In this document: piece by piece, positions 45,109 through 62,062 of the stretch
How positions within the stretch are numbered: the first letter of the stretch is position 1
Layout of the letters: the number at the start of each line of letters is the position of its first letter
Source: a virus
Reading direction: 5' to 3' (one strand)
DNA length: 64,000 nucleotides
IMG/VR virus record: IMGVR_UViG_3300023202_000336
Coordinates: 62,001 to 126,000 of that record
Notes under the pieces: generated by a model
Seen by the model: the letters and a program-made list of their open reading frames with translations, nothing else
What the model was told of the DNA's origin: nothing
Database searches by the model: none
Translations under genes and position numbers: made by a program

Positions 45109-45627
45109 ATGAGCAAAGTAAAAGCGGTAACGTTTGTTATCGTAGTTGCTGCAGTAACGTTTCTCGTTGTCGAGGGTGTCCTTCCGGTGCTGGTTGCAGC
45201 TTTCGAAGCCGGAGCACAGGACGAACAGAGGTCGTCAACAGCGATAGAAAAGGCAGAGGAACTGCCGAGGACGGTGAAGGTCGAAGCGGTCGCTACGGGC
45301 TACTGTCCGTGCGAGAAGTGCTGCGGTCGATTCGCCGATGGAATAACGGCGAATGGAAGGTCGGTTGAGATGCATCCGTATGGGATTGCCGCTGATCCTT
45401 TGGTATTGCCGTACGGGGCGAAGATCGATGTCCCCGGGTACGGTCGTGCCGAGGTCGACGATACCGGAGCGGCGATGAGTAATTCTGAGGTCCCTCACGT
45501 CGATCTCAGGTTCAAGACACACGACGAGGCTCTCGAGTGGGGTCGACGAGATGTCATCTTAGAGGTCTCGACGGTCAATCTCGTGAGGGACCAGATCGAG
45601 TCCCTCCTCGCCCATACGCTTCGGTAG
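45109..45627 (+). CDS. Membrane-anchored 3D-domain protein (cell-wall lytic candidate)
   Basis: The 172-residue product has an N-terminal hydrophobic helix (residues 7-32) serving as a signal anchor. It is followed by a 3D domain: VEAVATGYCPCEKCCG, ITANGRSVEMHPYGIAADP, LPYGAKIDVPGYG, VDDTGAAM, HVDLRFKTHDEALEWGRRDV. The aspartates of the DxD/D catalytic set of 3D/RlpA/MltA-like lytic transglycosylases are visible. TAAGGAGAAGAA precedes the ATG. It probably degrades or remodels peptidoglycan in the periplasm during lysis or infection. A terminator hairpin follows. Confidence 0.8.
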   Translation: MSKVKAVTFVIVVAAVTFLVVEGVLPVLVAAFEAGAQDEQRSSTAIEKAEELPRTVKVEAVATGYCPCEKCCGRFADGITANGRSVEMHPYGIAADPLVLPYGAKIDVPGYGRAEVDDTGAAMSNSEVPHVDLRFKTHDEALEWGRRDVILEVSTVNLVRDQIESLLAHTLR

Positions 45628-45667
45628 CTCAGCGGAAGAGTAAGTCTACTACGTGTGTTGCGTAGTG

Positions 45668-45713
45668 CGAGGGTCGGCCGGTGATTTCTGGATGTTCGGT
45701 CGGCCCTCGTTTA
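45668..45713 (+). terminator. Terminator-like hairpin after the 3D gene
   Basis: A 13-bp stem (CGAGGGTCGGCCG with CGGTCGGCCCTCG, two G-U pairs) with a 16-nt loop is followed by TTTA. It ends directly at the first solitary CRISPR-like repeat. Confidence 0.65.
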
Positions 45714-45742
45714 TGCTCGCTCAGGAGCTTTGTATCTGAGAC
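45712..45742 (+). repeat. Solitary CRISPR-like repeat A (cas leader)
   Basis: This 31-nt unit starts TATGCTCGCTCAGGAGC and ends GTATCTGAGAC. It differs from the array repeat at four positions, sharing CTCAG/CTGAG stem arms. It lies 82 nt before the cas start codon, in the leader. Confidence 0.9.
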
Positions 45743-45758
45743 TCGGGCGAAATCCGTC

Positions 45759-45777
45759 GAGGCCCCGTATCTGAGAC
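45759..45777 (+). repeat. Truncated second repeat in the cas leader
   Basis: GAGGCCCCGTATCTGAGAC matches the 3' part of the repeat. It is separated from repeat A by a 16-nt spacer-like segment, so the two form a degenerate one-spacer unit just upstream of the cas gene. Confidence 0.75.
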
Positions 45778-45824
45778 GCATCTGATATCGGAGCCTCGTC
45801 CCACCAACCGCTAAGGAGAACGAG

Positions 45825-47549
45825 ATGCAAAGAGGACGCGATCCAGCGAATATTTACAGCTTCGCTGCATACGTATACCGCGAGGATTACGAGCGGACCG
45901 GCGATATACTGTTCAATGCGAACCGGTTCGGAAACGCGCTTGTCGCGATCGAACTCCACCGTCGCGAAGAGTGCGAGAAAATACTTCGACAGTGCTCGAA
46001 GGATTACACGGACGCGCGCGCCAAGGAAGACGCGCTCGTCGACCACCTTCAAGCGATCGGCAAGGAGCTGGGTCGATATCGCCAAAAGAAGCGTGAAAAG
46101 AAGACGCCGAAGGAGCTCCGTGAAAAGTACACGGAGGTCGAAGGGCAACTCGAGAAGCATCGAAACAGCGTGGTGCTTCCGATCCGCCGGGAGCTCTACA
46201 GGAGCCCCAAAGTCAAGAAGCTCCTGAAGAAGCTACATGAGAAGGTAACCGCGGATAAAAAAGAAGCGCGGGCCAACAGGAACTGTTACTGGGGGACGGG
46301 TGGTCTCGTGGAGAAGGCCCACGAGAATGACGGAGAAGGGCCGCCTCCGTCATTCAAGCGATTCGACGGAACCGGTCGAATCGGTGTGCAGCTCCAACAG
46401 CAGTCAGGAGCTCCTCCGTGGACCCCGGAGCGGCTCACGAGAGAGAACACTCTCCTGATGCTCGATGTGGACCAGATGCCCGATGATTTCGTCGGCGCCG
46501 ATCTGAACACAAGGTACAAGAAAAGTCAGAAGAAACGCTGTCCGGTCCGTATGAGGATCGGTTCGGAGAAAGCCAAGCCGGTGTGGCTCGACTTCATGGT
46601 CAAGTTCCATCGACCGCTTCCAGAAGGCTGCAAGATCAAAGCAGCCTGGATCCTTTTCAAAAAGGTCGGGACGCATACGAAAACGTATTTTCAAACGCAA
46701 GTGGCGCGTCCCGAGGGGTTCATGAGAGACGACGTCGCCGATGGCGGCCATGTCGCGGTCGATCTTGGCTGGAGAAAGTTCGAGGACGACCGGGTCCGCG
46801 TCGCCTACTGGCTCGGAGATGATGGAGAACAGGGTGAGATCGCTCTCGATCCGGAGCTCCTGAGCCGAGACCGGAAGAACCGGTCACTCCAGTCGATCTA
46901 CGATCGACAGTTCGACTCCATGAAGGAGCTCCTCCATGGCTGGATCACCGAGCACAAGAGTTCGGTTCCGGAGTGGCTGAAGGAGGAGACGAAGACCCTG
47001 CCGATCTGGAGATCGAGGTCCCGCTTGGCAAAGGTCATCATCAAGTGGAGGAAACACCAGTTCGACGGCGACGTCGAACTGTATAAAACCGCCGAAAAGT
47101 GGCGGAAGAAGGACAAGCACCTCTTCGACTGGCACAAGTTCCAGGCGAGGATCATCAGGGAAAAGCGGAAGGCGCTTTTCCGAGAGGAAGCGGCAAAGCT
47201 CGCGAGGCGTTATCGCTGCGTCATATTCGAAGATATGAAGATCAGCGATATGGCCAAGGACTCACCGGTGAGCAGCGATGACATGGATCCAATCAAGGAT
47301 ATCATGAAACTCGCGTCGCCAGGGGAGCTTCGAATGGAGTTCGAGAGTCGATTCCGAGACTCCACCAGACAGAAGACGAAGAACACGACGAGAGAATGTT
47401 CGGAGTGCGGTTTCGTTGACGGAGAGTTCGACTTCGTGAATCTGTACCACGAATGCCCGAACTGTCAGGCGGAGAAGGATCAAGATCTCAACGCCTGCGA
47501 GAACCTCCTCGCACGAGAGTTGGGGCCACCAGACGCTTCGGCCGCTTGA
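45825..47549 (+). CDS. cas12: Compact Cas12 effector (Cas12m/V-U lineage-like)
   Basis: The 574-residue protein has an N-terminal helical recognition part with NCYWGTGGLVEKAH and FKRFDGTGRIGVQLQ, then KFHRPLPEGCKIKAAWILF, all reminiscent of the Cas12m/Cas12c group. A RuvC nuclease follows: RuvC-I HVAVDLGWR (Asp313), RuvC-II VIFEDMKISD (Glu469), RuvC-III EKDQDLNACEN (Asp554), with a CxxC...CxxC zinc ribbon between II and III. All three acidic residues are present. Described Cas12m proteins bind DNA and silence transcription without cutting; whether this one cuts is unknown. No cas1 or cas2 is nearby. The start has TAAGGAGAACGAG upstream. A CRISPR array follows about 100 nt after the gene. Confidence 0.85.
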   Translation: MQRGRDPANIYSFAAYVYREDYERTGDILFNANRFGNALVAIELHRREECEKILRQCSKDYTDARAKEDALVDHLQAIGKELGRYRQKKREKKTPKELREKYTEVEGQLEKHRNSVVLPIRRELYRSPKVKKLLKKLHEKVTADKKEARANRNCYWGTGGLVEKAHENDGEGPPPSFKRFDGTGRIGVQLQQQSGAPPWTPERLTRENTLLMLDVDQMPDDFVGADLNTRYKKSQKKRCPVRMRIGSEKAKPVWLDFMVKFHRPLPEGCKIKAAWILFKKVGTHTKTYFQTQVARPEGFMRDDVADGGHVAVDLGWRKFEDDRVRVAYWLGDDGEQGEIALDPELLSRDRKNRSLQSIYDRQFDSMKELLHGWITEHKSSVPEWLKEETKTLPIWRSRSRLAKVIIKWRKHQFDGDVELYKTAEKWRKKDKHLFDWHKFQARIIREKRKALFREEAAKLARRYRCVIFEDMKISDMAKDSPVSSDDMDPIKDIMKLASPGELRMEFESRFRDSTRQKTKNTTRECSECGFVDGEFDFVNLYHECPNCQAEKDQDLNACENLLARELGPPDASAA

Positions 47550-47558
47550 GAATGTTTT

Positions 47559-47606
47559 CGAGCGGCTACGTCGTCGATAAGATGACGTAGTCGCTCGAAG
47601 TCTTTT
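47559..47606 (+). terminator. Terminator-like hairpin after cas12
   Basis: CGAGCGGCTACGTC pairs with GACGTAGTCGCTCG (one mismatch) around a short loop, and is followed by AAGTCTTTT. It separates the cas gene from the array leader. Confidence 0.7.
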
Positions 47607-47650
47607 ATGCGATATTGTTTATATATAAAAATTTTGACAGTACTGTTAGA
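47607..47650 (+). promoter_or_regulatory. AT-rich array leader
   Basis: An AT-rich stretch with TTTATATATAAAA (47618-47630) and TTGACA (47634-47639) directly precedes the first repeat. TATATA at 47620 could be a -10. No clean promoter with correct spacing is seen. Confidence 0.35.
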
Positions 47651-48199
47651 TATGCCCGCTCAGAGGCTTCGTATCTGAGACGAGGCGCGTGATCTCGAAC
47701 TCCTGGAGTATCCGCGTCGCTTATGCCCGCTCAGAGGCTTCGTATCTGAGACTGGGGCCTGCCAAACCACGCCCGCTTATGCCCGCTCAGAGGCTTCGTA
47801 TCTGAGACAGCGCTAGGTGAAGGCTGGCGGGGATGCCACGACCGTTTATGCCCGCTCAGAGGCTTCGTATCTGAGACGGATCGTTTTGGTGGTATCCCGC
47901 TTATGCCCGCTCAGAGGCTTCGTATCTGAGACGCCAATCCATCCAGGTACCCGCTGATGCCCGCTCAGAGGCTTCGTATCTGAGACTAGGCGCGTGATCT
48001 CGAACTCCTGGAGTATCCGCGCCGCTTATGCCCGCTCAGAGGCTTCGTATCTGAGACCCGCCTCGAGCACCCGTTTCGGGGGCGTTGATATCCCGCTTAT
48101 GCCCGCTCAGAGGCTTCGTATCTGAGACGACCACGCCTGCCGTCTCCGCGAACTCGGCTTCGCCCGCTGATGCCCGCTCAGAGGCTTCGTATCTGAGAC
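47651..48199 (+). CRISPR. CRISPR array, nine repeats
   Basis: Nine 31-nt repeats start at 47651, 47722, 47778, 47847, 47902, 47956, 48027, 48098 and 48169. Their core begins ATGCCCGCTCAGAGGCTTCG and ends TATCTGAGAC; CTCAGA/TCTGAG forms a 3' hairpin, and GAC is the final triplet, as in other single-effector type V repeats. Most spacers end with CCGCT, so the true repeat is probably about 37 nt with a less conserved 5' end. Measured between 31-nt cores, spacers are 40, 25, 38, 24, 23, 40, 40 and 40 nt. Spacers 1 and 6 match at 38 of 40 positions. Spacers look GC-rich. Confidence 0.97.
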
Positions 48200-48229
48200 G
48201 CCAATCCATCAAAGCCTCGTACCTGAGAC
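48200..48229 (+). CRISPR. Terminal degenerate spacer-repeat unit
   Basis: After the ninth repeat comes GCCAATCCATC, identical to the start of spacer 5, then AAAGCCTCGTACCTGAGAC, a truncated repeat. The gene at 48249 starts 20 nt downstream, so array and gene leader are merged. Confidence 0.8.
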
Positions 48230-48248
48230 ACCAACCAAGGAGAAAACC

Positions 48249-48809
48249 ATGCGTTTAGTCTGTGTTCTACTTTTCGTGTTCGGCCTCTGTGCCGAAGAAA
48301 CCTCCAAACTCCCCAGCACCGCCCAGCGTCTCGTCGATCGCCACGATCACGCGCTGGCCGAACTGCGTGAGCGATACCTCGCCGACGTCGCCGACTTGCG
48401 CGAAGACGTCACCCACGACCTCGAGCGGGAACTCAAGAAGACGACCCGTCGCGGCGACCTGGAAGGGGCCCTCGCGATCAAGGAGAAGATCACCGCGCTC
48501 AAGGAGCAAGAGGAGGCGATCGCTGAAGCGCCGACCGATTTCCTCGGACGTAAGAGGCAACCTGAATTCGTCGGAAACACCTACCGATACAGCTCATGGT
48601 GGGTTCGCTTTGATAAGGACGGGTCGGTGAAGACAAACTGGACTTCCCGCGACCTGAGAGACGGTGAATGGAGGATGGAAGGCGAAGAGATCGTCCTCGA
48701 ATTCAACGGGGAAGAGCACGTGAACCGCGCCTTCATCAACGAGGATGGAGATCTGGATTTTAACGGGGCGCAGCTGTTCCGCCTCGAGGAGAAGGACGAG
48801 GACGAATGA
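48249..48809 (+). CDS. Secreted protein, tandem paralog 1
   Basis: The 186-residue product has a signal peptide (MRLVCVLLFVFGLCAEE), a long coiled coil (residues 30-95, with RRGDLEGALAIKEKITALKE) and a C-terminal small beta domain (WWVRFDKDGSVKTNW, GEWRMEGEEIVLEF). I recall this layout from secreted proteins of Planctomycetes and relatives. It begins 20 nt after the last degenerate repeat. It is 50% or more identical to the gene at 48883 in the coiled coil, and its stop overlaps the start of a truncated gene. Confidence 0.65.
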   Translation: MRLVCVLLFVFGLCAEETSKLPSTAQRLVDRHDHALAELRERYLADVADLREDVTHDLERELKKTTRRGDLEGALAIKEKITALKEQEEAIAEAPTDFLGRKRQPEFVGNTYRYSSWWVRFDKDGSVKTNWTSRDLRDGEWRMEGEEIVLEFNGEEHVNRAFINEDGDLDFNGAQLFRLEEKDEDE

Positions 48810-48895
48810 TCCTGATCCTGGATCAGTCGCCAGGAAAGGCGGCGAAGGCATACGCAGACAACGACCTCGTGGAGGAAGAACCGTGCGAATTCTGA
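48806..48895 (+). pseudogene. Truncated copy of the gene at 49455
   Basis: The first 14 codons (MILILDQSPGKAAK) equal those of the complete gene at 49455, after which the frame reads AYADNDLVEEEPCEF and stops. It is the abandoned partner of a tandem two-gene duplication; it also provides the leader of the second paralog. Confidence 0.75.
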
Positions 48896-49458
48896 TGGCT
48901 ACGCTATTCTTGTTGCCGACCCTCTCCCTGTCCTCCGAGGAGGAGCAGGACCCGATGCCCGCGTCTGCCAAACGGACCGTGGCCCAGCACGATCGCGAGG
49001 TGCAGCGCCTCAAAGAACGCTACCTGTCCGACCTCGCCGAAATCCGCGAAGACACCCTTCGCGACCTCGAGCGTGACATGGAAAAGACGACCCGTCGCGG
49101 CGACCTCGAAGGGGCCCTTGCGATCAAGGAGAAGATCACTGCGCTCGAGGAGCAAGAAGAAGAGATCGCTGAGGCACCGACGGATTTCCTCGGGAACGCG
49201 AAGAAGCCGTTTTTTGCTGGTAGAACTTTTAACCATGTGCGCGGTGGTGGTTACCATATCGCATTTTCGGAGGATGGAACGTTGACGACGACGAACTGGG
49301 GCCACAGGTACAACGTCGGCGAATGGACCTTTGAGGACGGAACTATCCACATGGTTTTCGAGAACGGCGGTAACCCACATGAAGCAGAGGTAGATCCAGA
49401 AAACCAGAGGCTCACCTTCATGAACGGTGACGTTTACGTGATCTCGGAAGACAAATGA
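48883..49458 (+). CDS. Secreted protein, tandem paralog 2
   Basis: GTG 48883 is preceded by GTGGAGGAAGAACC; an ATG at 48895 is an alternative. The product has a signal peptide (VRILMATLFLLPTLSLSS), a coiled coil with the same KTTRRGDLEGALAIKEKIT block as paralog 1, and a divergent beta domain (YHIAFSEDGTLTTTNWG, GEWTFEDGTIHMVF). Conserved coiled coils and divergent heads suggest different ligands for a common scaffold. Exported, likely periplasmic or outer surface. Confidence 0.65.
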   Translation: MRILMATLFLLPTLSLSSEEEQDPMPASAKRTVAQHDREVQRLKERYLSDLAEIREDTLRDLERDMEKTTRRGDLEGALAIKEKITALEEQEEEIAEAPTDFLGNAKKPFFAGRTFNHVRGGGYHIAFSEDGTLTTTNWGHRYNVGEWTFEDGTIHMVFENGGNPHEAEVDPENQRLTFMNGDVYVISEDK

Positions 49459-50012
49459 TCCTGATCCTGGATCAGTCGCCAGGAAAGGCGGCGAAGTGCT
49501 ACGCGGATAGAGATATTTCGAGAGGAGTAAATGACGTTATAGAAGTTCTCGAAAACGTGTACCTTCGCCGCCTTCGGCGCGATTATGATGACTCGTCTCC
49601 ATTCGTATCGTGGTGCGGTCTTACGTATCGTAACTTCATGTGGCTTTATTGGCTCGGTTGGTTTCTCGGCATCGAGTACTTCGTGTTAAAAGATAAAGAT
49701 CATAAAAATTCTCTGAAGCTAGATAGCATCAGAACGGAATACGAAAAGCTATCGAAAGGGATGAAGAGACCGCTTCCTCTTTCGTCGTGGCCTCAATCAC
49801 CGTTACCAGCAAAGTTTCGTATGCCGCTCTCAGAGTCGGATCTTCATCCAGCTTCAAAAGGTGACGCGCATCCAGCCGTGTTCGCCTACAGAAACTACTA
49901 CCAGACGTTTCCGGATCGCGAGTGGAGACGTCGAGAAAAACCGTTGTGGTGGGATCCGGCAAGTGCTGAAGATCCCGACGATTTCACCGAGACGATCATG
50001 GCGGTCGTCTAA
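49455..50012 (+). CDS. Conserved phage protein with WCGLTYRNFMWLYWLG motif
   Basis: The 185-residue product begins MILILDQSPGKAAKCYADRDI, and contains NFMWLYWLGWFLGIEYFVLKDKDHKN and AVFAYRNYYQTFPDREWRRREKPLWW. I recall similar short proteins (with an LDxxxxxxA start, NxxWL, ExxxR..K.HK and YR.YY..K...W....P.WW) in several phages; their function is not known to me. It overlaps the preceding stop (ATGA). The 5' end is duplicated at 48806. Confidence 0.55.
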   Translation: MILILDQSPGKAAKCYADRDISRGVNDVIEVLENVYLRRLRRDYDDSSPFVSWCGLTYRNFMWLYWLGWFLGIEYFVLKDKDHKNSLKLDSIRTEYEKLSKGMKRPLPLSSWPQSPLPAKFRMPLSESDLHPASKGDAHPAVFAYRNYYQTFPDREWRRREKPLWWDPASAEDPDDFTETIMAVV

Positions 50013-50024
50013 TTACGCGGAGGA

Positions 50025-50627
50025 ATGATGACGAAAACGCGTAGAAAAATGGTTGAGGTTTTAAATACATCGCTTCTCGATTTGGAAGATCTTGCGCTCA
50101 AAAGATTAGAAGAACGGAAGTTACCGGGTGATCCCAGTATTCCAGACGGTCTCCGTAGAGCTATAGAGGCGTTATCGAGAGCTGATCTGAAACCTGTTAC
50201 TAAGGAGTCGATTTGCGATGCTATGGCAGAATTGGCGCAGTTTCCTATATCAGATCCCGGCTATATAGCCTTCCGTAATAGTAAGTTAGATATAGGGGCA
50301 AGTGTACTCGTTGGTACACCGATTTACGTGAAAGCGAAGCGTAATCCGAATAATCATAATTATGCGACTGGCCACGTGTTTTTTGCAAGTTCAAATATCG
50401 ATAATACTTGGTCGTTAGGTATATTAAACAGCGGCACTATTGGTTTGGGAAATAGTCCTCCCGATTCTTTCGATGGAGTAGAGAGTTATTATCTCAGAAT
50501 AGCTACCGCAGACGAGGTACGTAGGACCATAACCGTTATGGTACAGATTATTAACCGCGAAGCTGTCGAAGTTAAAACCATGGGAATAATAGTAGGTTAC
50601 TTAGATACAGCTTTAAAAGAATTGTAA
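50025..50627 (+). CDS. Unrecognised accessory protein
   Basis: The 200-residue product is AT-rich. It has a helical N-terminal region (KMVEVLNTSLLDLEDLALKRLEE) and a beta-rich middle (IGASVLVGTPIYVKAKRNPNN, YATGHVFFASSNIDNTWSLG). GCGGAGGAATG includes the Shine-Dalgarno. It precedes a solitary CRISPR-like repeat. Function unknown. Confidence 0.55.
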   Translation: MMTKTRRKMVEVLNTSLLDLEDLALKRLEERKLPGDPSIPDGLRRAIEALSRADLKPVTKESICDAMAELAQFPISDPGYIAFRNSKLDIGASVLVGTPIYVKAKRNPNNHNYATGHVFFASSNIDNTWSLGILNSGTIGLGNSPPDSFDGVESYYLRIATADEVRRTITVMVQIINREAVEVKTMGIIVGYLDTALKEL

Positions 50628-50646
50628 GCAGTATTCTTTTGTTGAT

Positions 50647-50677
50647 TATGCCCGCTTAGGAGTTGCGTATCTGAGAC
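50647..50677 (+). repeat. Solitary CRISPR-like repeat B
   Basis: A 31-nt unit starting TATGCCCGCTTAGGAG and ending GTATCTGAGAC, with five differences from the array repeat. Only 14 nt separate it from an intrinsic terminator, giving a mini crRNA-like transcript end. The gene at 50734 follows. Confidence 0.9.
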
Positions 50678-50691
50678 AAAGCAACCAACAG

Positions 50692-50717
50692 CGACCCACT
50701 GGGTCGTTTTTCTTTTT
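50692..50717 (+). terminator. Intrinsic terminator after repeat B
   Basis: CGACCC-ACT-GGGTCG with a T-rich tail (TTTTTCTTTTTT). It lies upstream of the gene at 50734, so it terminates the transcript that contains repeat B or acts as an attenuator. Confidence 0.85.
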
Positions 50718-50733
50718 TACGGGAGGATTACCT

Positions 50734-51378
50734 ATGGCAAGACTGAGCCAAAAAGAAGTCATCAACACGATTCGCGATTGCTACGGCGATTTCGAATCGG
50801 TAAGGGAGGGCGATAACGTCCGGGCCTACATCGGCCCGGATATCGAGGTCGTCGTTCCCCCTGGCGGCCCATTCAAGGACCCCGTCGTGGTCAGCGTTCC
50901 CGAGGAACGTATGCACTACGAGTTTCCGATTACCGCGGGTGGCATCGGCGATGCGGTCTTCTTCTTGAGAAAGAAGACCGCATCGCTGAAGGTCAAAGAC
51001 GGCAAGCGGCTCAAGAAAAACGAGCTGATCGCCCGTCGTGCCCTGTGGATGGCCTTCAAGGCCGCAGTCCCGCTCGAGAGCAAAATCCTCCACGTCGAAG
51101 ACGAGGAGGTGCTTTCCGAGAAGGAGCTGTGGAAGAAGGTGCAACCGAGCAGAACCGAAACGAAGTGGTCCATATTTCTCCGGTACCACTTCGGTCGGGC
51201 GCTCAACCTCAGCATCTGCTGGAACCGGGACGAGGTATGGATCGAACCCGACATCCTGACTCCCGGACGGCAGTCCTGGGTGAGTTCGTACAAGAGTGGA
51301 AGGGATCTCATCGCGAAAGCGATCGAATCAATCCGCGACGAGATCAAGGCACTGCGCGGTGCAGTGATTTTCAGGTGA
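50734..51378 (+). CDS. Unrecognised accessory protein
   Basis: The 214-residue product starts at an ATG preceded by CGGGAGGATTACCT. It has a helical start (SQKEVINTIRDCYGDF), beta segments (VRAYIGPDIEVVVPPGG) and a helical end (SGRDLIAKAIESIRDEIKAL). An inverted repeat (GCGATGCGGTCTTCTTC with GAAGAAGACCGCATCGC, 50948-50984) lies inside it. It follows repeat B and its terminator. No family recognised. Confidence 0.55.
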   Translation: MARLSQKEVINTIRDCYGDFESVREGDNVRAYIGPDIEVVVPPGGPFKDPVVVSVPEERMHYEFPITAGGIGDAVFFLRKKTASLKVKDGKRLKKNELIARRALWMAFKAAVPLESKILHVEDEEVLSEKELWKKVQPSRTETKWSIFLRYHFGRALNLSICWNRDEVWIEPDILTPGRQSWVSSYKSGRDLIAKAIESIRDEIKALRGAVIFR

Positions 51379-51380
51379 TC

Positions 51381-52496
51381 ATGAAAGGTTGGAAAGAGCT
51401 ACGGCCGAATGGTCGCCAACTTGCCGAGTACTGCGGAGAAGACGGAATCGGGTTCGACTATATCCGTTTCTCCAAAGGACCCGGCAGAACCGAGGCGAAG
51501 GAATTCGCCTCGGAAGAATCCCTCGCCGAATTCCTCGATTCAGGAGGTTTTACGCGATTTCCCTGCGTGTACGTAAAAGCACGAGGATACAAATCAAAGC
51601 GTAAAGCCAGAGTCCATGTCGGTGAGGGGACGCTCGTGGTAGCCATGGAGAACGGTATCACCGTTTCTCGCATGAGAGTTACCGTGAGCAACAGCTACCA
51701 AGAGGAGAGCTACGTGAGGGACAAAAAAGAGTCTCTGCAGGTGCGCAGAGAAAAAGTTCTCGACCGCTTGAGAGTGGTCGAGGCCAACGAGAGTAATACA
51801 GGCGCTGAATCTGCGTTGGGTTCGCGCTACCGTCATCAACTCAGTGAGATTGAGAAAGCAATTTCACGTGCCGAGGAAAGGGACGAAATGTCCGACATCG
51901 ATAAGACCGAAACCGAGATCGAGAAGACCGAGGTCAGCAAGGCCATCGAACCCCACGAGGAGCAGGAGAAGGCGATCGAGCGCAGCCTCGCGCGTGTCTC
52001 CGCCAGCGACGACGACAAGGGCAAGGCCAAGGAGGCCGAGAAGCCCGCGGACCGCAAGCGTGACCATCGCCCGCGCAATCGTCGTCACGAGATCACGGAT
52101 GAAGATGCGTTCAACTTCATCTTCTACGGCTCGCTGACTCCTCCGAGTACCGAGTACCTCCTCGCCGACGAGGTCCTCGATCGTCACGGCGGCTTCCTCG
52201 ACATCGGCGCCATCAAGCGTCTCATGAAGGCCGGCCGGTGCACCATCTGGCTCAACCCGGATGAAAACCCCGTCGAGCAGCTCGGCGGCGAAAAGGTAAA
52301 ACCCACCTACAACGGGTTCCTGGTCAAGAACGACCACGGGAAGTGGGTCGACCCCGAGTGCCGCGTGAACGGCGTGGTGGTGCGGATGGCCGCGATCGAG
52401 ATCGCCTTCAAATACCGGTACTACGATCGTACCGATACCTACATGATGCAGGTGGACTTCCGCATCCACCGCGCTGCACTCGACGTCGTCGAGTGA
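51381..52496 (+). CDS. Two-part accessory protein, possible fusion
   Basis: The start is ATG 51381, right after the preceding stop. Residues 1-165 are AT-richer and beta/helical (KGWKELRPNGRQLAEYCGED). Residues about 170-235 form a charged coiled coil beginning MSDIDKTETEIEKTEV, and the last 130 residues are a compact GC-rich domain (FIFYGSLTPPSTEYLLADEV, IAFKYRYYDRTDTYMMQVDF). The ATG at 51888 could start a separate gene for the second part. A strong terminator follows. Confidence 0.5.
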   Translation: MKGWKELRPNGRQLAEYCGEDGIGFDYIRFSKGPGRTEAKEFASEESLAEFLDSGGFTRFPCVYVKARGYKSKRKARVHVGEGTLVVAMENGITVSRMRVTVSNSYQEESYVRDKKESLQVRREKVLDRLRVVEANESNTGAESALGSRYRHQLSEIEKAISRAEERDEMSDIDKTETEIEKTEVSKAIEPHEEQEKAIERSLARVSASDDDKGKAKEAEKPADRKRDHRPRNRRHEITDEDAFNFIFYGSLTPPSTEYLLADEVLDRHGGFLDIGAIKRLMKAGRCTIWLNPDENPVEQLGGEKVKPTYNGFLVKNDHGKWVDPECRVNGVVVRMAAIEIAFKYRYYDRTDTYMMQVDFRIHRAALDVVE

Positions 52497-52540
52497 AGAA
52501 AGAGGGGCCGGCTGTACGGCCGGCCCCTCTTTCTTCTTTA
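52495..52540 (+). terminator. Strong intrinsic terminator
   Basis: An 18-bp perfect stem (GAAGAAAGAGGGGCCGGC and its complement) with a 6-nt loop is followed by TTTAG. The A-rich 5' arm would also terminate transcription in the other direction. Confidence 0.92.
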
Positions 52541-52598
52541 GTTTGGCGGGCGTAATCCCGTCACGGGGTAGTTGTACCCTACAAAAAGGAGGTCGTGT

Positions 52599-53171
52599 AT
52601 GACCATGATAAGAGTGGACGCGACGGATCTCGCGAAAGATCTCGTGAAGGCGGCGTATTCGCATCGCGGGATCATCAGCGAAGGACGTCTCGTCCAGTTT
52701 CGGCTTCTCATCGGGAAAACCGACGTCTCGTTGTCGTCGGTTCTCGAAGAGATAGCCCTCATACCGGGGAACTGGATAGAGGGGAAAGTAACCCCCGAAG
52801 TCGAAGGCAAAGAGAAGTCGGCGCATATGGTCATCAAGATCGTTGCGAACATGATCGGAGCCTACATATCGACGTCGTTCAAGTTCCTGGGAGAAAAGCT
52901 GGAAGCACACAAAAACAATTCAGAAGAAGTCTTCGAAGAGTTCAAGTCGATGAGAAGTCGGCTCCTTCGTGCGTCGAAGCTGATCCAGCCCCTGGTATTT
53001 CTCGATAAGAAGTGGGAGATGGTGGAGCCCCACCATGTCGAAGCAATCGCGGAGAACATCGAAGACGCTCACAAAAGGCTCGGCTCCACCGGTCTTACGA
53101 TGTTCTTGGGTCCGGGGACACTGGACGCAGTCCGCACATGGTACTCCGAACTCGAACTCGAGGAGGAGTAG
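52599..53171 (+). CDS. Unrecognised helical protein
   Basis: ATG 52599 follows AAAAAGGAGGTCG, a strong Shine-Dalgarno; the in-frame ATG at 52572 is upstream of it. The 190-residue product is mainly helical (DATDLAKDLVKAAYSHRGIIS, FEEFKSMRSRLLRASKLIQP, VEAIAENIEDAHKRLG). It heads a group of four accessory genes. Function unknown. Confidence 0.6.
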   Translation: MTMIRVDATDLAKDLVKAAYSHRGIISEGRLVQFRLLIGKTDVSLSSVLEEIALIPGNWIEGKVTPEVEGKEKSAHMVIKIVANMIGAYISTSFKFLGEKLEAHKNNSEEVFEEFKSMRSRLLRASKLIQPLVFLDKKWEMVEPHHVEAIAENIEDAHKRLGSTGLTMFLGPGTLDAVRTWYSELELEEE

Positions 53172-53186
53172 TAGGAGGCACTTTTA

Positions 53187-53882
53187 GTGGATGACGAACC
53201 TCAACCGGAAGGTGTCGAGGTTGAGGTACCCGAGAAGCAGGATGGTCAGCGGTCCCTGAACAGGCACGGCCTGTTCAAACCGTTGACCATCCACTTCAAC
53301 GGTATTTCTGCGGACACCCCTTTACCACGCATACGAGAGCGACTCATATGGTTGAAGGTGTTAATCGAAAATGCCGCGAGGCCTGATAACAATGCCGTTT
53401 ATTCGTTGAAGTTGAAGAGAACGGCAACGATTGATTTCGCTATAAATGCGGTAGAGAGAAAAGCAAAACGTATACATACGCCCCGCAAGACGGCTGAAGG
53501 TTACACGTTGATGAGCAGGTCGGAAGCGTACTATAAGACAGTTGGTTCGGCGATTATGTATCTCGACGCGATGATCAGGTATAACGATTTCGCGCAGCTG
53601 TTAGAAATGATTGATACGCTTCGTCACAATGATCCGTCGGTCCTCGACGAGCTTCCTGAACGTCATTACTCAAAGTACTTTCGGTTCAATAGACCGATAT
53701 ACGGCACCAAATATAAAGAGCTGCACCATAAGTTGTTAAAAGAGAAGGAGTCGTACGAGCGCCGAGCAGCGATATTGGAGGTAATTGGAATTGAGAAGAA
53801 TGCAAAACGCGACACTATCAGAGAGGCCCTCCAGGACATCTTGCCTGAAGGGTTGTCAATCGTTTCGAATGAACCTACGTGA
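53187..53882 (+). CDS. Unrecognised helical protein
   Basis: The 231-residue product starts at GTG 53187. It is mostly helical with basic patches (LKLKRTATIDFAINAVERKAKRI, YKELHHKLLKEKESYERRAAIL). No motif assigns a function. It is likely in one operon with the gene at 52599 (15 nt gap). Confidence 0.55.
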   Translation: MDDEPQPEGVEVEVPEKQDGQRSLNRHGLFKPLTIHFNGISADTPLPRIRERLIWLKVLIENAARPDNNAVYSLKLKRTATIDFAINAVERKAKRIHTPRKTAEGYTLMSRSEAYYKTVGSAIMYLDAMIRYNDFAQLLEMIDTLRHNDPSVLDELPERHYSKYFRFNRPIYGTKYKELHHKLLKEKESYERRAAILEVIGIEKNAKRDTIREALQDILPEGLSIVSNEPT

Positions 53883-54022
53883 GCCCCCTCTTCGTTTCGT
53901 GAATCATTACCCTTGACCCAACAGCGTCGAGGAGTATTGATCTCGGGACGAGAGGAGGCACCAACGGCCTATACGGTCGCGATGCCATCTATCTTATTTT
54001 TTAGCTATCAGTCGGGACCGTC

Positions 54023-54328
54023 GTGAAAACAGTTACAACGCGTATATTAGCCGAAGCGGTGATACTCGATAAGAGCCTCTATCGAGAGATGGGAAGCCCG
54101 TCGAAATTGACGCTGATATATAGCGATGCCGATTTACTGTTGTTTCCCGGATCAACGAAGCAGGTGTACAAGAAGAATAGGTCGATATTAATACCTCTGC
54201 TCGACGAGATAAGAGTCGATGGTGACATCAAGAAAGGCGAATTCGACACTACCGTAGAGTACGCTTGTGGATACCCTATATATAGGGTCAGAGACTGTTT
54301 AACAAAAAGATTTCCTTTTGTTTGCTAG
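54023..54328 (+). CDS. Small accessory protein
   Basis: The 101-residue product starts at GTG 54023. It has alternating strands and helices (TTRILAEAVILDKSLYREMG, LTLIYSDADLLLFPGSTKQVYK). The 140 nt upstream contain no gene; they hold TTGACC (53913) as a weak -35 candidate. Family not recognised. Confidence 0.5.
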   Translation: MKTVTTRILAEAVILDKSLYREMGSPSKLTLIYSDADLLLFPGSTKQVYKKNRSILIPLLDEIRVDGDIKKGEFDTTVEYACGYPIYRVRDCLTKRFPFVC

Positions 54329-54340
54329 AAAGGAGCAAAC

Positions 54341-55090
54341 GTGCTAGAATTAGGAGATATCACACTCGCTGTTGATGATAGTAAGCACGCTCTCATTATC
54401 CTCACCGAGAACTTCGATCATGTACCAGAATGGGCACGAACTTCTAAAGAGAACGACAAGGTATCCCTAAATATCAAGGGTGGCCTTGTCGAGTTGGAAG
54501 TCCCATACACAACTCTAAGGCTCGATAGCGATCAGGAAGAGAGTGCGTCAGAGGTGACAGCGCCTCCTCCACCTAATGAGTCGCGCGAAACAGATAAGCC
54601 TAAAAAGAAGAGTAAAAGAAGCGCATATAAGACGCGTTTAAGGGCGACGGCATGGCTCCCCTATTTGAAGGGGGTACTCGCTAAGCACGGGTTTACTTAC
54701 GCGGAAAAGCACGACCACGGCGGAGGCGGTAACCCTAAAATCTGGGAATTCGTCACCGATGGGAAGCGTAAAAATCTTCGGTGTACGGCGTTTACCGAAA
54801 GTCCGAAACGGAAATCAGAGCCTGCGAGGGCTACGCTTAACATCGAGCCTTTCCGTAAGTATAGTGACCTTGTGGACTATTACGCGTTTACATACATGTC
54901 GAAAGAAAAGGTGTATCTCGTCTCGAAGAGTTACATCAATGTAGTAGTCGACGAGCACGTGAAGTCAGTCACCGATAAGCGAGGCGAAGCTCCGGTTACC
55001 TACACCGTCACTCCGCGGCATCTCGACGATATTTGGCTTCGCGAGAGGCGGAAGCCAGCTCATAAGCGCATACTCGAGGTCCTGACGTAG
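54341..55090 (+). CDS. Unrecognised accessory protein
   Basis: The 249-residue product starts at GTG 54341 after AGAAAGGAGCAAAC. The N-terminal 80 residues are a small beta domain; residues 80-100 are basic and low complexity (DKPKKKSKRSAYKTRLRA); the rest is alpha/beta (WLPYLKGVLAKHGFTYAEKHDHGGGG, YLVSKSYINVVVDEHVKS). The basic linker could contact nucleic acid. Its stop abuts the convergent terminase stop. Confidence 0.5.
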   Translation: MLELGDITLAVDDSKHALIILTENFDHVPEWARTSKENDKVSLNIKGGLVELEVPYTTLRLDSDQEESASEVTAPPPPNESRETDKPKKKSKRSAYKTRLRATAWLPYLKGVLAKHGFTYAEKHDHGGGGNPKIWEFVTDGKRKNLRCTAFTESPKRKSEPARATLNIEPFRKYSDLVDYYAFTYMSKEKVYLVSKSYINVVVDEHVKSVTDKRGEAPVTYTVTPRHLDDIWLRERRKPAHKRILEVLT

Positions 55091-56809
55091 TCATATCGAC
55101 TCGACGAATACCTCAGCGAGCTTCGGCCATCTATTGAGCATGTGATAGATGGCCATCACCCCGAAATTAATGGCGTGTACCACGTCGTCGGTTCTTCTAC
55201 TCATCCGTTTAACGAGTCTCTTCGGAGATCCGCGCGGATTATCGATGGACTCTTCGTAGATGTTAAGGAAGTCACGAAGATGGTCATCGAGGTACTCATC
55301 GTTCTTCGGCAGGAGCACCTGTCCTGACTTGATAAGTTCACAGAGTAGGAGGACCGAGCGTGGTTTGTCGAGTGTAAAGCTCGAACGAGCGCCGATTAGT
55401 TTCGCCGGCTTGTTGTAAAAGACGAGCGGTTTAGTAGTAGCGGTAACGCTATAAGTAAAAGGAATTACTCTTTCAGCCGGCCACCCAGCGGCGTTGAGCA
55501 TCTGCTCCTGAACGTTTCCTTGTCCGCCGTAATCGATAGCTACATATTCGGAATGACTCATACGTGCGACGTTTGCGACGAGTTCCGCTTCGTGTGCATG
55601 ATCTGTCTCATACGGGATCTTATGAAGCCATTTCACTTCTATCACACCCGACGTGAGCACGCCCATCAAGGCGACTGCGGTATTAGATACGAAGTCTTCC
55701 GTATCGGTGGTTTTCTCTTTACCACGTCCGCCCCAGTCAACTCCCACCAGCTGCATGATGTACTGACCGTGAGGCATGTTCTCAGGGTGACACGGTTCGA
55801 CCTTACATGCTTCGCGAATCTGTTCGGCGGTAATAACTTTCGCACCGACGTCGTACGACTCTCCGAGAATCTCGTTATGAAAGACATATGCGGGCTTGTT
55901 CTTCTGAACTTCGAGTATTTCCTGCCACGAATTCGGAGATTCGTAGTGCATAGGAAGGGTCGGTTGTGAGACGTGATATCCTGCGAATTTAGCCCGGCGC
56001 TCGGGAAAATCGTGAACGAAAAATCCGAGCTTACTATTCAGCGGCTTACCGCACTTAGAGCATACGAGCGTCTTGGACCCTAACATCTGAAGCAAGTCAC
56101 CATCGACCGCCGATCGGTTTACACGTTTGCATCCGATTTCCTGACACGGTATATGCCATATCCCTTGAGAAGAGTCCTCCCAGTACAGCTGTATCGGATT
56201 ATCAAATGTTTTCGGCGTACCCGTCATTCGCATGATTTTAAACGGAGACGCACCCATACAGGCTTCGATGATAGGTATGTCCTCGATAGCGAAATCCTGG
56301 GTTTCATCGAGATCTACTTCGTCTGCAGGAACTCCTCGAATGCGGTTCGGATCCCCGTGTGAGTACATGTAGTAAAGATTCGATTCGTTACCAATGCTTC
56401 TCTGTAGTACAGTATCGATGCTTTTATCTCCGATTATGAACCGCTTCGCAGGAGACGTCGAGAGGAACGGTTTCACGTAGTTCTGACTGAATTTACGTAC
56501 CTGCTCGAAGAGAGGCATGACTGTGAGAATGTTGTAGAACGGTTGCGCAGATGCTCTCAGTATCTGAGACGCCGCCATATTTGTACTTTTCGACGTCTGG
56601 CGCCCGGTACGGAAAATCATACGTCTGGGCATATTTTTCAGGCGAAACATCGGTTCGAAGAGAAAATGAGACCACTCGAGAGAGTACGGTTTTCCTCTTA
56701 AACTAAATAACAGCGGGAGCATCTTTGAAAGTGGGCGATCATCGCAGTGGTCGTATTTTTCGAGATACGACTCGACCTGATCCGCGACCTGTAAGGGACT
56801 CCCCGTCAT
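55091..56809 (-). CDS. terL: Terminase large subunit
   Basis: The ATG complementary to 56807-56809 gives MTGSPLQVADQVESYLEKY; the longer form from 56932 overlaps the Fic gene. The 572-residue protein has an ATPase half with a Walker A variant (FRTGRQTSKST) and Walker B (GVPADEVDLDETQD), and a nuclease half with VGVDWGGRG, YVAIDYGGQG and DDVVHAINFG supplying the catalytic Asp residues. A CxxC pair near residues 250-290 (CSKCGKPL) is a zinc-like insertion. It packages DNA into proheads. Unusually it is far from the head genes, facing the opposite way. Confidence 0.9.
   Translation of the reverse strand: MTGSPLQVADQVESYLEKYDHCDDRPLSKMLPLLFSLRGKPYSLEWSHFLFEPMFRLKNMPRRMIFRTGRQTSKSTNMAASQILRASAQPFYNILTVMPLFEQVRKFSQNYVKPFLSTSPAKRFIIGDKSIDTVLQRSIGNESNLYYMYSHGDPNRIRGVPADEVDLDETQDFAIEDIPIIEACMGASPFKIMRMTGTPKTFDNPIQLYWEDSSQGIWHIPCQEIGCKRVNRSAVDGDLLQMLGSKTLVCSKCGKPLNSKLGFFVHDFPERRAKFAGYHVSQPTLPMHYESPNSWQEILEVQKNKPAYVFHNEILGESYDVGAKVITAEQIREACKVEPCHPENMPHGQYIMQLVGVDWGGRGKEKTTDTEDFVSNTAVALMGVLTSGVIEVKWLHKIPYETDHAHEAELVANVARMSHSEYVAIDYGGQGNVQEQMLNAAGWPAERVIPFTYSVTATTKPLVFYNKPAKLIGARSSFTLDKPRSVLLLCELIKSGQVLLPKNDEYLDDHLRDFLNIYEESIDNPRGSPKRLVKRMSRRTDDVVHAINFGVMAIYHMLNRWPKLAEVFVESI
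56551..56570 (+). repeat. Repeat-like hairpin inside terL (loop-deleted)
   Basis: ATGCTCTCAGTATCTGAGAC contains the same stem arms and 3' end as the CRISPR repeat, with the loop missing. It may be chance, as it codes for ILRAS in terL on the other strand. Confidence 0.35.
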
Positions 56810-56858
56810 TATGCCGCAACTTTTATTGCACAATTGCGAAAATGCAAGGAGCTTTTCG

Positions 56859-57404
56859 ATGACCAAGCCATTACCCCTTGATGTAACGAAACTTAGGGAT
56901 TTCGTGATAGAATCAAATACGGTCGAAGGCATCGTCAGAGACGAGAAAACACTTAAGGAGGAGGTAGAAGCTCACGAGCGACTGCTTCGGTGCAAAAAGG
57001 TCGAGGTTCGAGACGTCGTAAGACTCGTGAACACAGTGCAGCCGAACGCTCAGTTCAGGGATCATCAAGATATCCCGGGAGTCTGCGTGATAGCGAGGGT
57101 GCAGCGTCGGCATCATACCGAGACAGTCGTTATGTCCGAACCTCCAGAGAGTGGACCGCTCATCAGGGCCCGTCTACAAGACGTGCTCGATAAAGTCGAG
57201 AGGATGGAGAACGTTTATACGAATCATCTTCTTTATGAAGAGCTTCACCCTTTTACCGACGGGAACGGTCGTTCAGGACGGGCGGTATGGCTATGGCAGA
57301 TGTTGCGTACTGATATACCGTGGGGTTATCGATTCGAGCTACCGTTCCTGCAGAAGTGGTACTATGACTCGTTCTCTATGCTCGCTCAGGAGCCTCGTAT
57401 CTGA
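56859..57404 (+). CDS. fic: Fic-domain protein (AMPylase-type, class II)
   Basis: ATG 56859 has AAGGAGC upstream; a start at 56811 would overlap terL. The 181-residue product has an N-terminal inhibitory-helix motif (IESNTVEGI, fitting S/T-x3-E-G/N) and the complete catalytic motif HPFTDGNGRSGR (His130). Such enzymes transfer AMP or another nucleotide to a target protein and are held inactive by their own helix. The final codons (SMLAQEPRI) and stop are formed by a solitary CRISPR-like repeat, and the last 74 bp are duplicated downstream. Likely role: modification of a host or phage target; its target is not predictable. Confidence 0.85.
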   Translation: MTKPLPLDVTKLRDFVIESNTVEGIVRDEKTLKEEVEAHERLLRCKKVEVRDVVRLVNTVQPNAQFRDHQDIPGVCVIARVQRRHHTETVVMSEPPESGPLIRARLQDVLDKVERMENVYTNHLLYEELHPFTDGNGRSGRAVWLWQMLRTDIPWGYRFELPFLQKWYYDSFSMLAQEPRI

Positions 57405-57407
57405 GAC
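57334..57407 (+). repeat. 74-bp direct repeat, copy 1 (fic 3' end)
   Basis: It covers the last 71 bases of the fic gene and ends GAC. The second copy lies 582 bp downstream with a few mismatches, in the same orientation. Confidence 0.92.
57377..57407 (+). repeat. Solitary CRISPR-like repeat C (overlaps the fic stop)
   Basis: A 31-nt unit starting TATGCTCGCTCAGGAGCC and ending GTATCTGAGAC, four differences from the array. TGA in ATCTGAGAC is the fic stop codon. The membrane gene at 57549 follows. Confidence 0.92.
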
Positions 57408-57470
57408 GAGATGGATCATCGAGGTAGGCATATATGAGGCAGATAGACACCCGAGTATAGGAGTATATAT

Positions 57471-57534
57471 GAGAAAGTAATCGCGAGCTACTAATGCACG
57501 AGAAGTAATAGCGAGCTACTAACGTACGAGAAAG
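57471..57534 (+). repeat. Tandem 28-29-bp direct repeats
   Basis: GCGAGCTACTAA occurs in two near-identical units (57471-57499 and 57500-57527), each ending with a variable TGCAC/CGTAC and followed by GAGAAAG. It lies upstream of the gene at 57549 and could be an operator or recombination footprint. Confidence 0.8.
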
Positions 57535-57548
57535 AAGAGGATACTAGA

Positions 57549-57860
57549 GTGAAGTATACGAGAGTGAAACATGCGAGAAACAAGAGTGCCGCGACCTCCG
57601 GTGAGAAATTCATTTGGAGTGTATTCGCGTGGTCAGCGTTAGGCGCTATCGTTCTAATAGCCTTTGATTACATATGGCCCTACGCAGTCGCAGCCGCGTT
57701 CTGGTGGTCAGTTTTATGGAGCCTTTGCTGGGTTCTGAATACTCTATTCGACAAAGTTGAGTGGCTGGATGACTGGCTTGTAGGAGGGCCCGGACTGAGA
57801 GAAGTAAAAAGGGAGGTCGCTAAATACCATAAAGAACAAGTATTAAAAAAAGAAAGTTGA
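57549..57860 (+). CDS. Small membrane protein
   Basis: The 103-residue product starts at GTG 57549. It has two hydrophobic segments (IWSVFAWSALGAIVLIAF and WPYAVAAAFWWSVLWSLCWV), rich in Trp, with basic residues before and after. It is enclosed by the duplicated fic ends and followed by a terminator, so it may be a cassette inserted or duplicated with them. Role unknown; toxin-like or holin-like activity is possible but not shown. Confidence 0.55.
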   Translation: MKYTRVKHARNKSAATSGEKFIWSVFAWSALGAIVLIAFDYIWPYAVAAAFWWSVLWSLCWVLNTLFDKVEWLDDWLVGGPGLREVKREVAKYHKEQVLKKES

Positions 57861-57879
57861 TAGCGCCGAGTGATTGTTC

Positions 57880-57908
57880 GGGCGGGACAAGCCCCCGCCC
57901 TCTTTTTA
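57880..57908 (+). terminator. Intrinsic terminator after the membrane gene
   Basis: GGGCGGG pairs with CCCGCCC around a 7-nt loop and is followed by TCTTTTT. Confidence 0.88.
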
Positions 57909-57915
57909 AATCGAG

Positions 57916-57989
57916 TCGAGCTACCGTTCCTGCAGAAGTGGTACTATGACCCGTTCACTATGCTCGCTCAGGAGCTCCGTATCTGAGAT
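57916..57989 (+). repeat. 74-bp direct repeat, copy 2, with solitary repeat D
   Basis: A copy of the fic 3' end (57334-57407) with a few substitutions. It ends with a 31-nt CRISPR-like unit at 57959-57989 starting TATGCTCGCTCAGGAGC and ending GTATCTGAGAT. It is noncoding here. The gene at 58076 follows. Confidence 0.92.
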
Positions 57990-58027
57990 AAAAAAAACTA
58001 GTGAATCAGAAAATAGATGATATAGGG

Positions 58028-58033
58028 TATAAT
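58028..58033 (+). promoter_or_regulatory. Possible -10 box
   Basis: A perfect TATAAT lies 43 bp upstream of the ATG at 58076, in AT-rich DNA. No good -35 is present at 17 bases upstream. Confidence 0.4.
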
Positions 58034-61393: not shown

Positions 61394-62062
61394 ATGTTTC
61401 TCCCCCATAGTTTCAAAACAGAAGTAGGGGGCGTTCCCGAGATAATCATCTCTCAGCAGGCGTACTACGACATGTGGACCATCGTCGACAAAGTTACGAC
61501 CGAAGTGGGGTGGATGGGAACAGCTCACCGTAGAGACGACGGCAATCTTTTCATCGAAGAAATTCTCTTGCTGAAGCAGCAGTGCCACTCGACCACTACC
61601 GAGATGTCCCCTGAGGGGTACGCAGATGCTGTTACGCGTCTTGCGATGGAGGACGCCGAGAAAGGAATCAATCCGGAGTCGCCAGACTACAGGGCCAACA
61701 AACTTTTCTTCTGGGGCCATTCTCACGTAAACATGGATACGTCTCCTTCGTCGCAAGACGATGCCCAGATCGAAATATTCAGAGGCGATGGATGTCCGTG
61801 GTTTATCCGCGGCATCTTCAACAAGAAGAAGAGAGCAGAGTTCACTGTATTTTTCTTCGACGCGAATCTGGCGGTCATAGACTGCCCGTGGTCGATAGAG
61901 GCTACCGTCGACGATGGTAGAAGAGAATTCTGGGAGAAGGAAATCAGTGATAAGGTCAGTACTTTCTCGTCGAGCTCGTATTACGGAAGTAACAAGCACA
62001 AAGGCAGCAGCTATACCCCTCGTAGGACGGGTGGTCAGTTCAGTGATCGGTGGAGTAAGTAA
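61394..62062 (+). CDS. JAB/JAMM-family metallopeptidase
   Basis: The 222-residue product has the JAMM motif: EVGWMG (Glu37 region), then FFWGHSHVNMDTSPSSQDD with H-S-H and the S-x2-D zinc ligands. In eukaryotes such proteins remove ubiquitin; in bacterial cassettes they mature or remove the ubiquitin-like protein. Ala/Ser/Tyr/Gly-rich C-terminus (FSSSSYYGSNKHKGSSY). Its stop overlaps the ThiF-like start. Preceded by an AGAGGGATAAG ribosome binding site. Confidence 0.85.
   Translation: MFLPHSFKTEVGGVPEIIISQQAYYDMWTIVDKVTTEVGWMGTAHRRDDGNLFIEEILLLKQQCHSTTTEMSPEGYADAVTRLAMEDAEKGINPESPDYRANKLFFWGHSHVNMDTSPSSQDDAQIEIFRGDGCPWFIRGIFNKKKRAEFTVFFFDANLAVIDCPWSIEATVDDGRREFWEKEISDKVSTFSSSSYYGSNKHKGSSYTPRRTGGQFSDRWSK

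Follow-up and report, generated by a model that had tools for sequence, protein, structure and literature searches.

Here, we analyzed a 64,000-nucleotide (nt) stretch of viral DNA (the window), which spans positions 62001 to 126000 of the 180134-base IMG/VR record IMGVR_UViG_3300023202_000336 (G000). At this locus lie a gene for a Cas12m effector (cas12m), a CRISPR (clustered regularly interspaced short palindromic repeats) array, and single repeat copies that stand alone between genes (Table 1). We propose, with a probability of roughly 0.4, that the solitary repeats are complete scaffolds of the Cas12m CRISPR RNA (crRNA), dispersed between genes, kept as RNA, and acting mainly in cis in G000.

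Table 1. Features of the cas12m locus and its solitary repeats (window positions)
Feature	Position	Strand	Remarks
Solitary Cas12m scaffold	45711..45742	+	83 nt before cas12m start; stem CTCAG/CTGAG, pseudoknot GCTC/GAGC
Truncated second copy, 3' part of repeat, cas12m leader	45757..45777	+	
cas12m, 574-amino-acid type V-M (Cas12u1) effector	45825..47549	+	RuvC D-E-D, WED His-Arg dyad, and zinc ribbon kept
CRISPR array	47650..48229	+	9 full repeats; degenerate last copy at 48211-48229
Solitary scaffold copy	50646..50677	+	Stem kept, pseudoknot weakened
Solitary scaffold copy	57376..57407	+	Its own TGA closes the Fic gene frame (56859-57404)
Solitary scaffold copy, duplicate of that at 57376	57958..57989	+	Homology 48 nt upstream, ends at repeat 3' end
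79-nt duplication, repeat at 3' end	57328..57406 (first copy), 57910-57988 (second copy)	not assigned	

A phage Cas12m with its own array

The protein encoded upstream of the array is a phage Cas12m of subtype V-M. It matches the PADLOC Cas12u1 (V-U1) profile over residues 29 to 565 (1.5e-81), and its best sequence matches in the PDB are Cas12m proteins (23vw, 6e-47; 8hhl, 1.3e-24; also 8pm4). The top four PDB folds found with its predicted model (mean predicted local distance difference test score, 83) are likewise all Cas12m (template modeling [TM] score up to 0.74), and non-Cas12m families score 0.40 or less. Full-length family similarity, a closest fold with recognition lobe (REC) architecture, and a stem-plus-pseudoknot crRNA scaffold were all found. 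A histidine-arginine pair implicated in precursor crRNA (pre-crRNA) processing by Cas12m2 (PMC10442227) is kept as well. An IMG/VR search returned 16 Cas12m loci, one of them a near-identical record of the G000 phage, and whole contigs were compared. The RuvC residues are D-E-D in G000 and nearly all phage relatives (G017 is incomplete) and H-P-D in G003; the processing histidine is present in every phage relative except G003. Next to the effector gene, regular near-identical repeats alternate with differing spacers, as in a CRISPR array. The spacers are bimodal in length (∼17 to 19 or 32 to 34 nt), and some are duplicated (1/6 and 5/9).

Solitary copies form their own sub-family

A census of the whole G000 record with the repeat core CGTATCTGAGAC (at most one mismatch, both strands) gave 35 forward and 0 reverse matches. 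They fall into the array of 9 repeats that follows the cas gene, a mini-array of 3 copies near 165.8 kb, and ∼20 dispersed copies, which lie at 1.3 to 4.1, 107.7 to 120, and 159.6 to 179.6 kb of the record. In the window, a 22-nt pattern with up to three mismatches found 14 sites, all on the plus strand, against a shuffle mean of 0.05. An earlier note on this DNA had placed four single and two truncated copies on one strand; all six were recovered, and the strand observation extends to 35/35 over the whole record. Single intergenic repeats without adjoining repeats are a feature of G000. The same note had described an inner CAGGAG variant as the mark of solitary copies, as opposed to CAGAGG in the array. 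This variant is present in all four single copies of the window and in most dispersed copies genome-wide, but those at record positions 164363 and 179557 have the array form; the view that solitary copies are a sub-family of their own rather than array fragments stands. At six record positions (161606, 164383, 165141, 168824, 172918, and 179577), a solitary repeat is followed immediately by an imperfect copy of its 3' half (GTATCTGARAC), and the same pattern occurs at 48929 of the G014 record (turned so that cas12m is on the plus strand).

Phage solitary repeat units are known to act as RNA anti-CRISPRs (Racr; PMC10651486), and the dispersed copies might likewise be repeat mimics blocking a host Cas12m. 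However, the repeat mimicked here belongs to the array and effector that the phage itself carries, so that a blocker would disable the phage's own system, and ∼20 copies per genome are far from a single solitary unit. We regard this explanation as very improbable.

The crRNA scaffold fold is kept by compensating changes

Every repeat has a 5' arm, a stem of 5 to 7 pairs, and a loop; through its first bases, the loop pairs with the arm. Stem plus pseudoknot is the published architecture of the Cas12m2 crRNA (PMC10442227). Across 14 phages, pseudoknot pairing scored 151 with same-phage arms versus 88.5 ± 14.8 with swapped arms, and 151 was reached in 0/20000 trials of swapping. Compensating changes were also found within genomes. 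In G000, the pseudoknot is GCC/GGC in the array and GCTC/GAGC in solitary copies; the CAGAGG-to-CAGGAG variant is therefore a compensated pseudoknot, since it accompanies the change from GCCC to GCTC. Corresponding pairs are AAAGAT/ATCTTT versus AAGGAT/ATCCTT in G008 and CCC/GGG versus TCC/GGA in G013 (single-column Fisher tests, 0.022 for G000 and 0.012 for G008). Stems remain paired in 94 to 96% of cells. The claim of a pseudoknot rests on the cross-phage arm swap together with these compensations. No Rfam family matched the repeat. Its reading as coding sequence (YARSGASYLR) was rejected: the frame is not constant, and the Fic gene reads another frame.

Dispersed copies are intergenic elements

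The centers of 23 of 25 G000 copies are intergenic, although noncoding DNA makes up 13.8% of the genome (p = 4e-18). The earlier note had read both strand and position as evidence of a tie to gene leaders. Because ∼93% of called G000 genes share the plus strand, one-strandedness is expected (25/25 copies on that strand has a chance of 0.15), and the strand bias carries no information. The distances to the next gene start are as that note had them, at 83 (cas12m), 20 (48249), 57 (50734), 142 (57549), and 87 nt (58076). A special tie to gene starts in G000 did not hold up: a Shine-Dalgarno sequence plus start codon lies within 60 nt downstream in 6/25 copies, which is the level of random intergenic positions (0.25), and the copies thus belong to intergenic regions in general, not to leaders in particular. 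In G008 and G003, such a start follows 13/25 and 7/11 copies, against 0.26 and 0.22 at random intergenic positions, and these rates are nearer to same-gap position expectations of 0.40 and 0.41. A repeat copy begins upstream of cas12m in three divergent phages (G000, G003, and G015), at distances of 115, 116, and 123 nt among the three. A terminator-like hairpin with a T run lies 12 nt after the copy at 50646.

Other Cas12m phages scatter copies of their own repeat

In most of the phages compared, the array directly follows cas12m. Dispersed copies resembling the phage's own array repeat were found in G008, G003, G001, G015, G014, G013, and G011; G008 has ∼20 plus small arrays, and mini-arrays of 2 to 3 copies are present among these phages. 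G001 is a relative of G003, and no Cas12m was found in the G001 fragment. Specificity was controlled by swapping repeats between phages, which gave a background of 0 to 2 copies per genome outside groups with similar repeats; the control fails within those groups (G000/G001/G003/G014, G005/G011, G010/G014, and G014/G011). The earlier proposal that solitary copies are tied to the Cas12-like protein is borne out, in that divergent Cas12m phages scatter copies of their own repeat and keep the fold by compensation. Placement between genes, codirection with them, and a conserved 5' TATG could also mark a general phage motif, associated with promoters or starts and independent of Cas12m. Such a motif would not be expected to vary between phages along with the array repeat or to keep the crRNA scaffold fold, and we see hardly any room for this explanation.

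In Virus Rctr197k, a Cas12m relative with a noted similarity to transposase (KX853510.1, 110803 to 114219) stands beside an annotated CRISPR; a second annotated CRISPR (119281 to 119535) has a different repeat.

Units end sharply at the repeat 3' end

Paralogous dispersed copies share 27 to 81 nt of upstream sequence but never downstream sequence. Downstream extensions of at least 12 nt were seen in 0/297 pairs in G000, 0/325 in G008, and 0/77 in G003; in G001, there were two pairs only, both within its array. A block of ∼85 nt ending in the repeat is present in G001 and missing at the same place in G003, and duplications of 79 nt and ∼70 nt terminate at the repeat. Since the copies at 57376 and 57958 both lie inside the 79-nt duplication, the first copy of which is the 3' end of the Fic gene, they represent one event. 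This sharp 3' boundary is the pattern to be expected of a unit that joins promoter and scaffold and leaves the guide free.

The same duplications, the block absent from the G003 counterpart, and the TnpB genes in the G000 record would fit scattering at the DNA level, in which repeats spread by duplication or recombination, as array relics or as recombination points for gene cassettes, with no function of their own. Compensated pseudoknots, confinement to intergenic sites, and the high proportion of paired stems speak against such scattering, and we consider this origin improbable.

Guide sequences and array spacers lack identifiable targets

The earlier note had suggested that the 16 to 20 nt after each copy might match promoters. 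We found no match with a usable protospacer-adjacent motif (PAM) in the phage's own genome apart from short seeds and further copies of the repeat; candidate self-targets with a PAM were only tandem half-repeats and short seeds. The 18-nt guides after dispersed copies had no target in 16 other phage contigs, and guide seeds near the G000 locus showed no clear excess (4.64 observed versus 4.21 expected). In G000, G003, and G015, no seed of at least 7 nt with a TTN PAM was found near cas12m; the guide of a CreR-type regulator would partly match the effector promoter. GCATCT, which follows the truncated copy (window 45778 onwards), matches the opposite strand of the cas12m start region beside a TTT PAM; this 6-nt seed at the start codon is too short to be taken for a target. 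In G008, the guide stretch often coincides with the Shine-Dalgarno sequence and start codon of the gene that follows. Comparison of guide evolution was uninformative (G008 relatives are 99.97 to 100% identical; G002 is 98.5 to 99.96% identical to G000). For the array, phage records, IMG/VR, and species genomes were searched: spacer 1 occurred in the near-identical record and nowhere else, species genomes included, and a whole-array query gave one phage match at an E value of 0.6.

Proposed cis-acting scaffolds or separate crRNA genes

The membership of the solitary repeats in the phage's own V-M system, intergenic placement, the scaffold fold, and termination at the repeat 3' end are each established or well supported. 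If the copies act in cis, the scaffolds would be transcribed inside long one-direction phage transcripts, and Cas12m would bind each one and cut 5' of it, in the way reported for the pre-crRNA of Cas12m2. Messages could then be separated or destabilized at scaffold points, and the copy in the cas12m leader may provide feedback on the effector. Short ribonucleoproteins with the flanking leader as guide would arise as by-products; given that the last bases of the repeat are GAC instead of a TTN PAM, they would not attack their own locus. In yeast, Cas12a and CasPhi-2 degrade mRNA that carries pre-crRNA pieces in the 5' or 3' untranslated region (UTR) (PMC9943656). A natural regulon, in which ∼20 operon-embedded scaffolds are cut or bound by the phage's own Cas12m to time or limit accessory genes and cas12m itself, is possible but doubtful.

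Several observations weigh against cis action. In G000, copies occupy leaders no more often than random intergenic positions do, the pseudoknot is weakened in the copy at 50646, and three copies in G014 are antisense to genes. Within-genome pseudoknot shuffles were weak (pairing, 142/500 and 57/500; covariation, 36/500 and 105/500); whole-alignment shuffles are nonsignificant within one genome because little varies. Processing of pre-crRNA by the G000 effector is surmised from one conserved residue pair, which is His-Gln in G008, the phage with the most copies; the arginine is also glutamine in G016. In G004, G005, G006, G010, G012, and G016, dispersed copies are missing or do not exceed background, and Virus Rctr197k has none; the system can thus do without the element. 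Finally, six G001/G003 copies have a TTGACY-16-TACAGT or TATAGT promoter with a start ∼3 nt upstream of the scaffold (p ≤ 0.005 each), and the G015 copy before cas12m has TTGCAT-16-TATAAT (p < 0.001). Well-placed promoters in these three phages point to separate small RNAs.

Such RNAs would make the copies solitary crRNA genes, whose scaffold-guide products act in trans and direct Cas12m to DNA of the host, a competitor, or the phage, with the flank as a guide that changes at each copying. Besides the exactly placed promoters, the shared upstream and never-shared downstream sequences of paralogous copies and the mini-arrays favor this explanation. However, a dedicated sigma70-like promoter was found at 0/25 copies in G000 and 2/26 in G008, which is chance level; guides lack targets in the phage's own genome and the 16 contigs; and a G008 guide that coincides with the next gene's start fits poorly. 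As a general account, we judge crRNA genes somewhat unlikely. They are better supported in G001 and G003 than in G000. The earlier note had offered binding or processing of leader RNAs and short guide RNAs made beside genes; both cis-acting scaffolds and trans-acting crRNA genes may be true, in different phages.

Neighboring features

Directly before the first solitary copy, the window contains a D-arm-like sequence (GGTAGCTCAGCGGAAGAG) and a strong hairpin (45622 to 45700); despite the D-arm-like stretch, ARAGORN calls no tRNA there. Right after the array lie adjacent paralogs at 48249 to 48809 and 48883 to 49458 (83% DNA identity over 179 nt) with signal-peptide-like starts and no Pfam match; the first had been taken for a cas12 paralog, wrongly, since its paralog is the next gene. 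Two tandem 28-nt units occupy 57475 to 57530, upstream of the gene at 57549. Elsewhere in the G000 record, there are a TnpB-like open frame (143476 to 144654) and a TnpB C-terminal fragment that starts right after two solitary copies (161615 to 162109). Short genes in tandem, with many LWDNLWASLRAS-like repeats, span both record ends (∼179660 to 1290). The last 100 bases recur near the record start, and the record may therefore be circular.

Comparison with known systems

Phage CRISPR systems are usually taken as weapons against hosts or competitors, and the dispersed scaffolds make a second use testable by RNA mapping. Either control of the phage's own transcripts or distributed crRNA genes replacing an array would, if true, carry wider meaning for solitary phage repeats. 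There are precedents for solitary repeat units, for mini-arrays, and for crRNA-like regulators. No phage with its own V-M effector plus ∼20 compensated scaffolds was found in the literature searched, outside which lay subscription journals and preprints. The earlier note knew of no comparable arrangement; that is too broad for phage solitary repeats as such, which are known (PMC10651486), and holds for their number here and their place beside the phage's own effector gene.

Effector sequence and fold, the single stem-pseudoknot crRNA, and an array beside the effector are those of subtype V-M (Cas12m/V-U1). Unlike Cas12m2, whose RuvC motif is H-D-D, nearly all phage members keep D-E-D, and scaffold copies are dispersed over the phage genome. 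Like the solitary repeat units described as RNA anti-CRISPRs, the G000 copies are single CRISPR repeats in intergenic phage DNA; those units, however, are described as not cas associated and as mostly matching the host system, whereas here 15 to 25 copies per genome match the phage's own. CreR crRNA-like RNAs (types I and V-A; PMC12737573) resemble the G000 arrangement in that a crRNA-like unit at the effector locus could set the effector level. CreR is known for cas promoters, whereas G000 leader guides have no clear cas12m promoter match and many copies stand at other genes. In synthetic UTR pre-crRNA control, an mRNA becomes an effector substrate when one of its UTRs contains a Cas12 direct repeat, as proposed for G000; that control was engineered in yeast, with no natural case found in the literature searched. 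TldR (PMC13418256) is, as proposed for G000, a TnpB/Cas12-like phage protein used for regulation, but it is described as an RNA-guided flagellin transcription factor, whereas G000 combines Cas12m and an array with many dispersed scaffolds. The scattering of scaffolds in G000 and in unrelated viruses with this kind of protein suggests that a phage can reuse CRISPR parts to act on its own transcripts.

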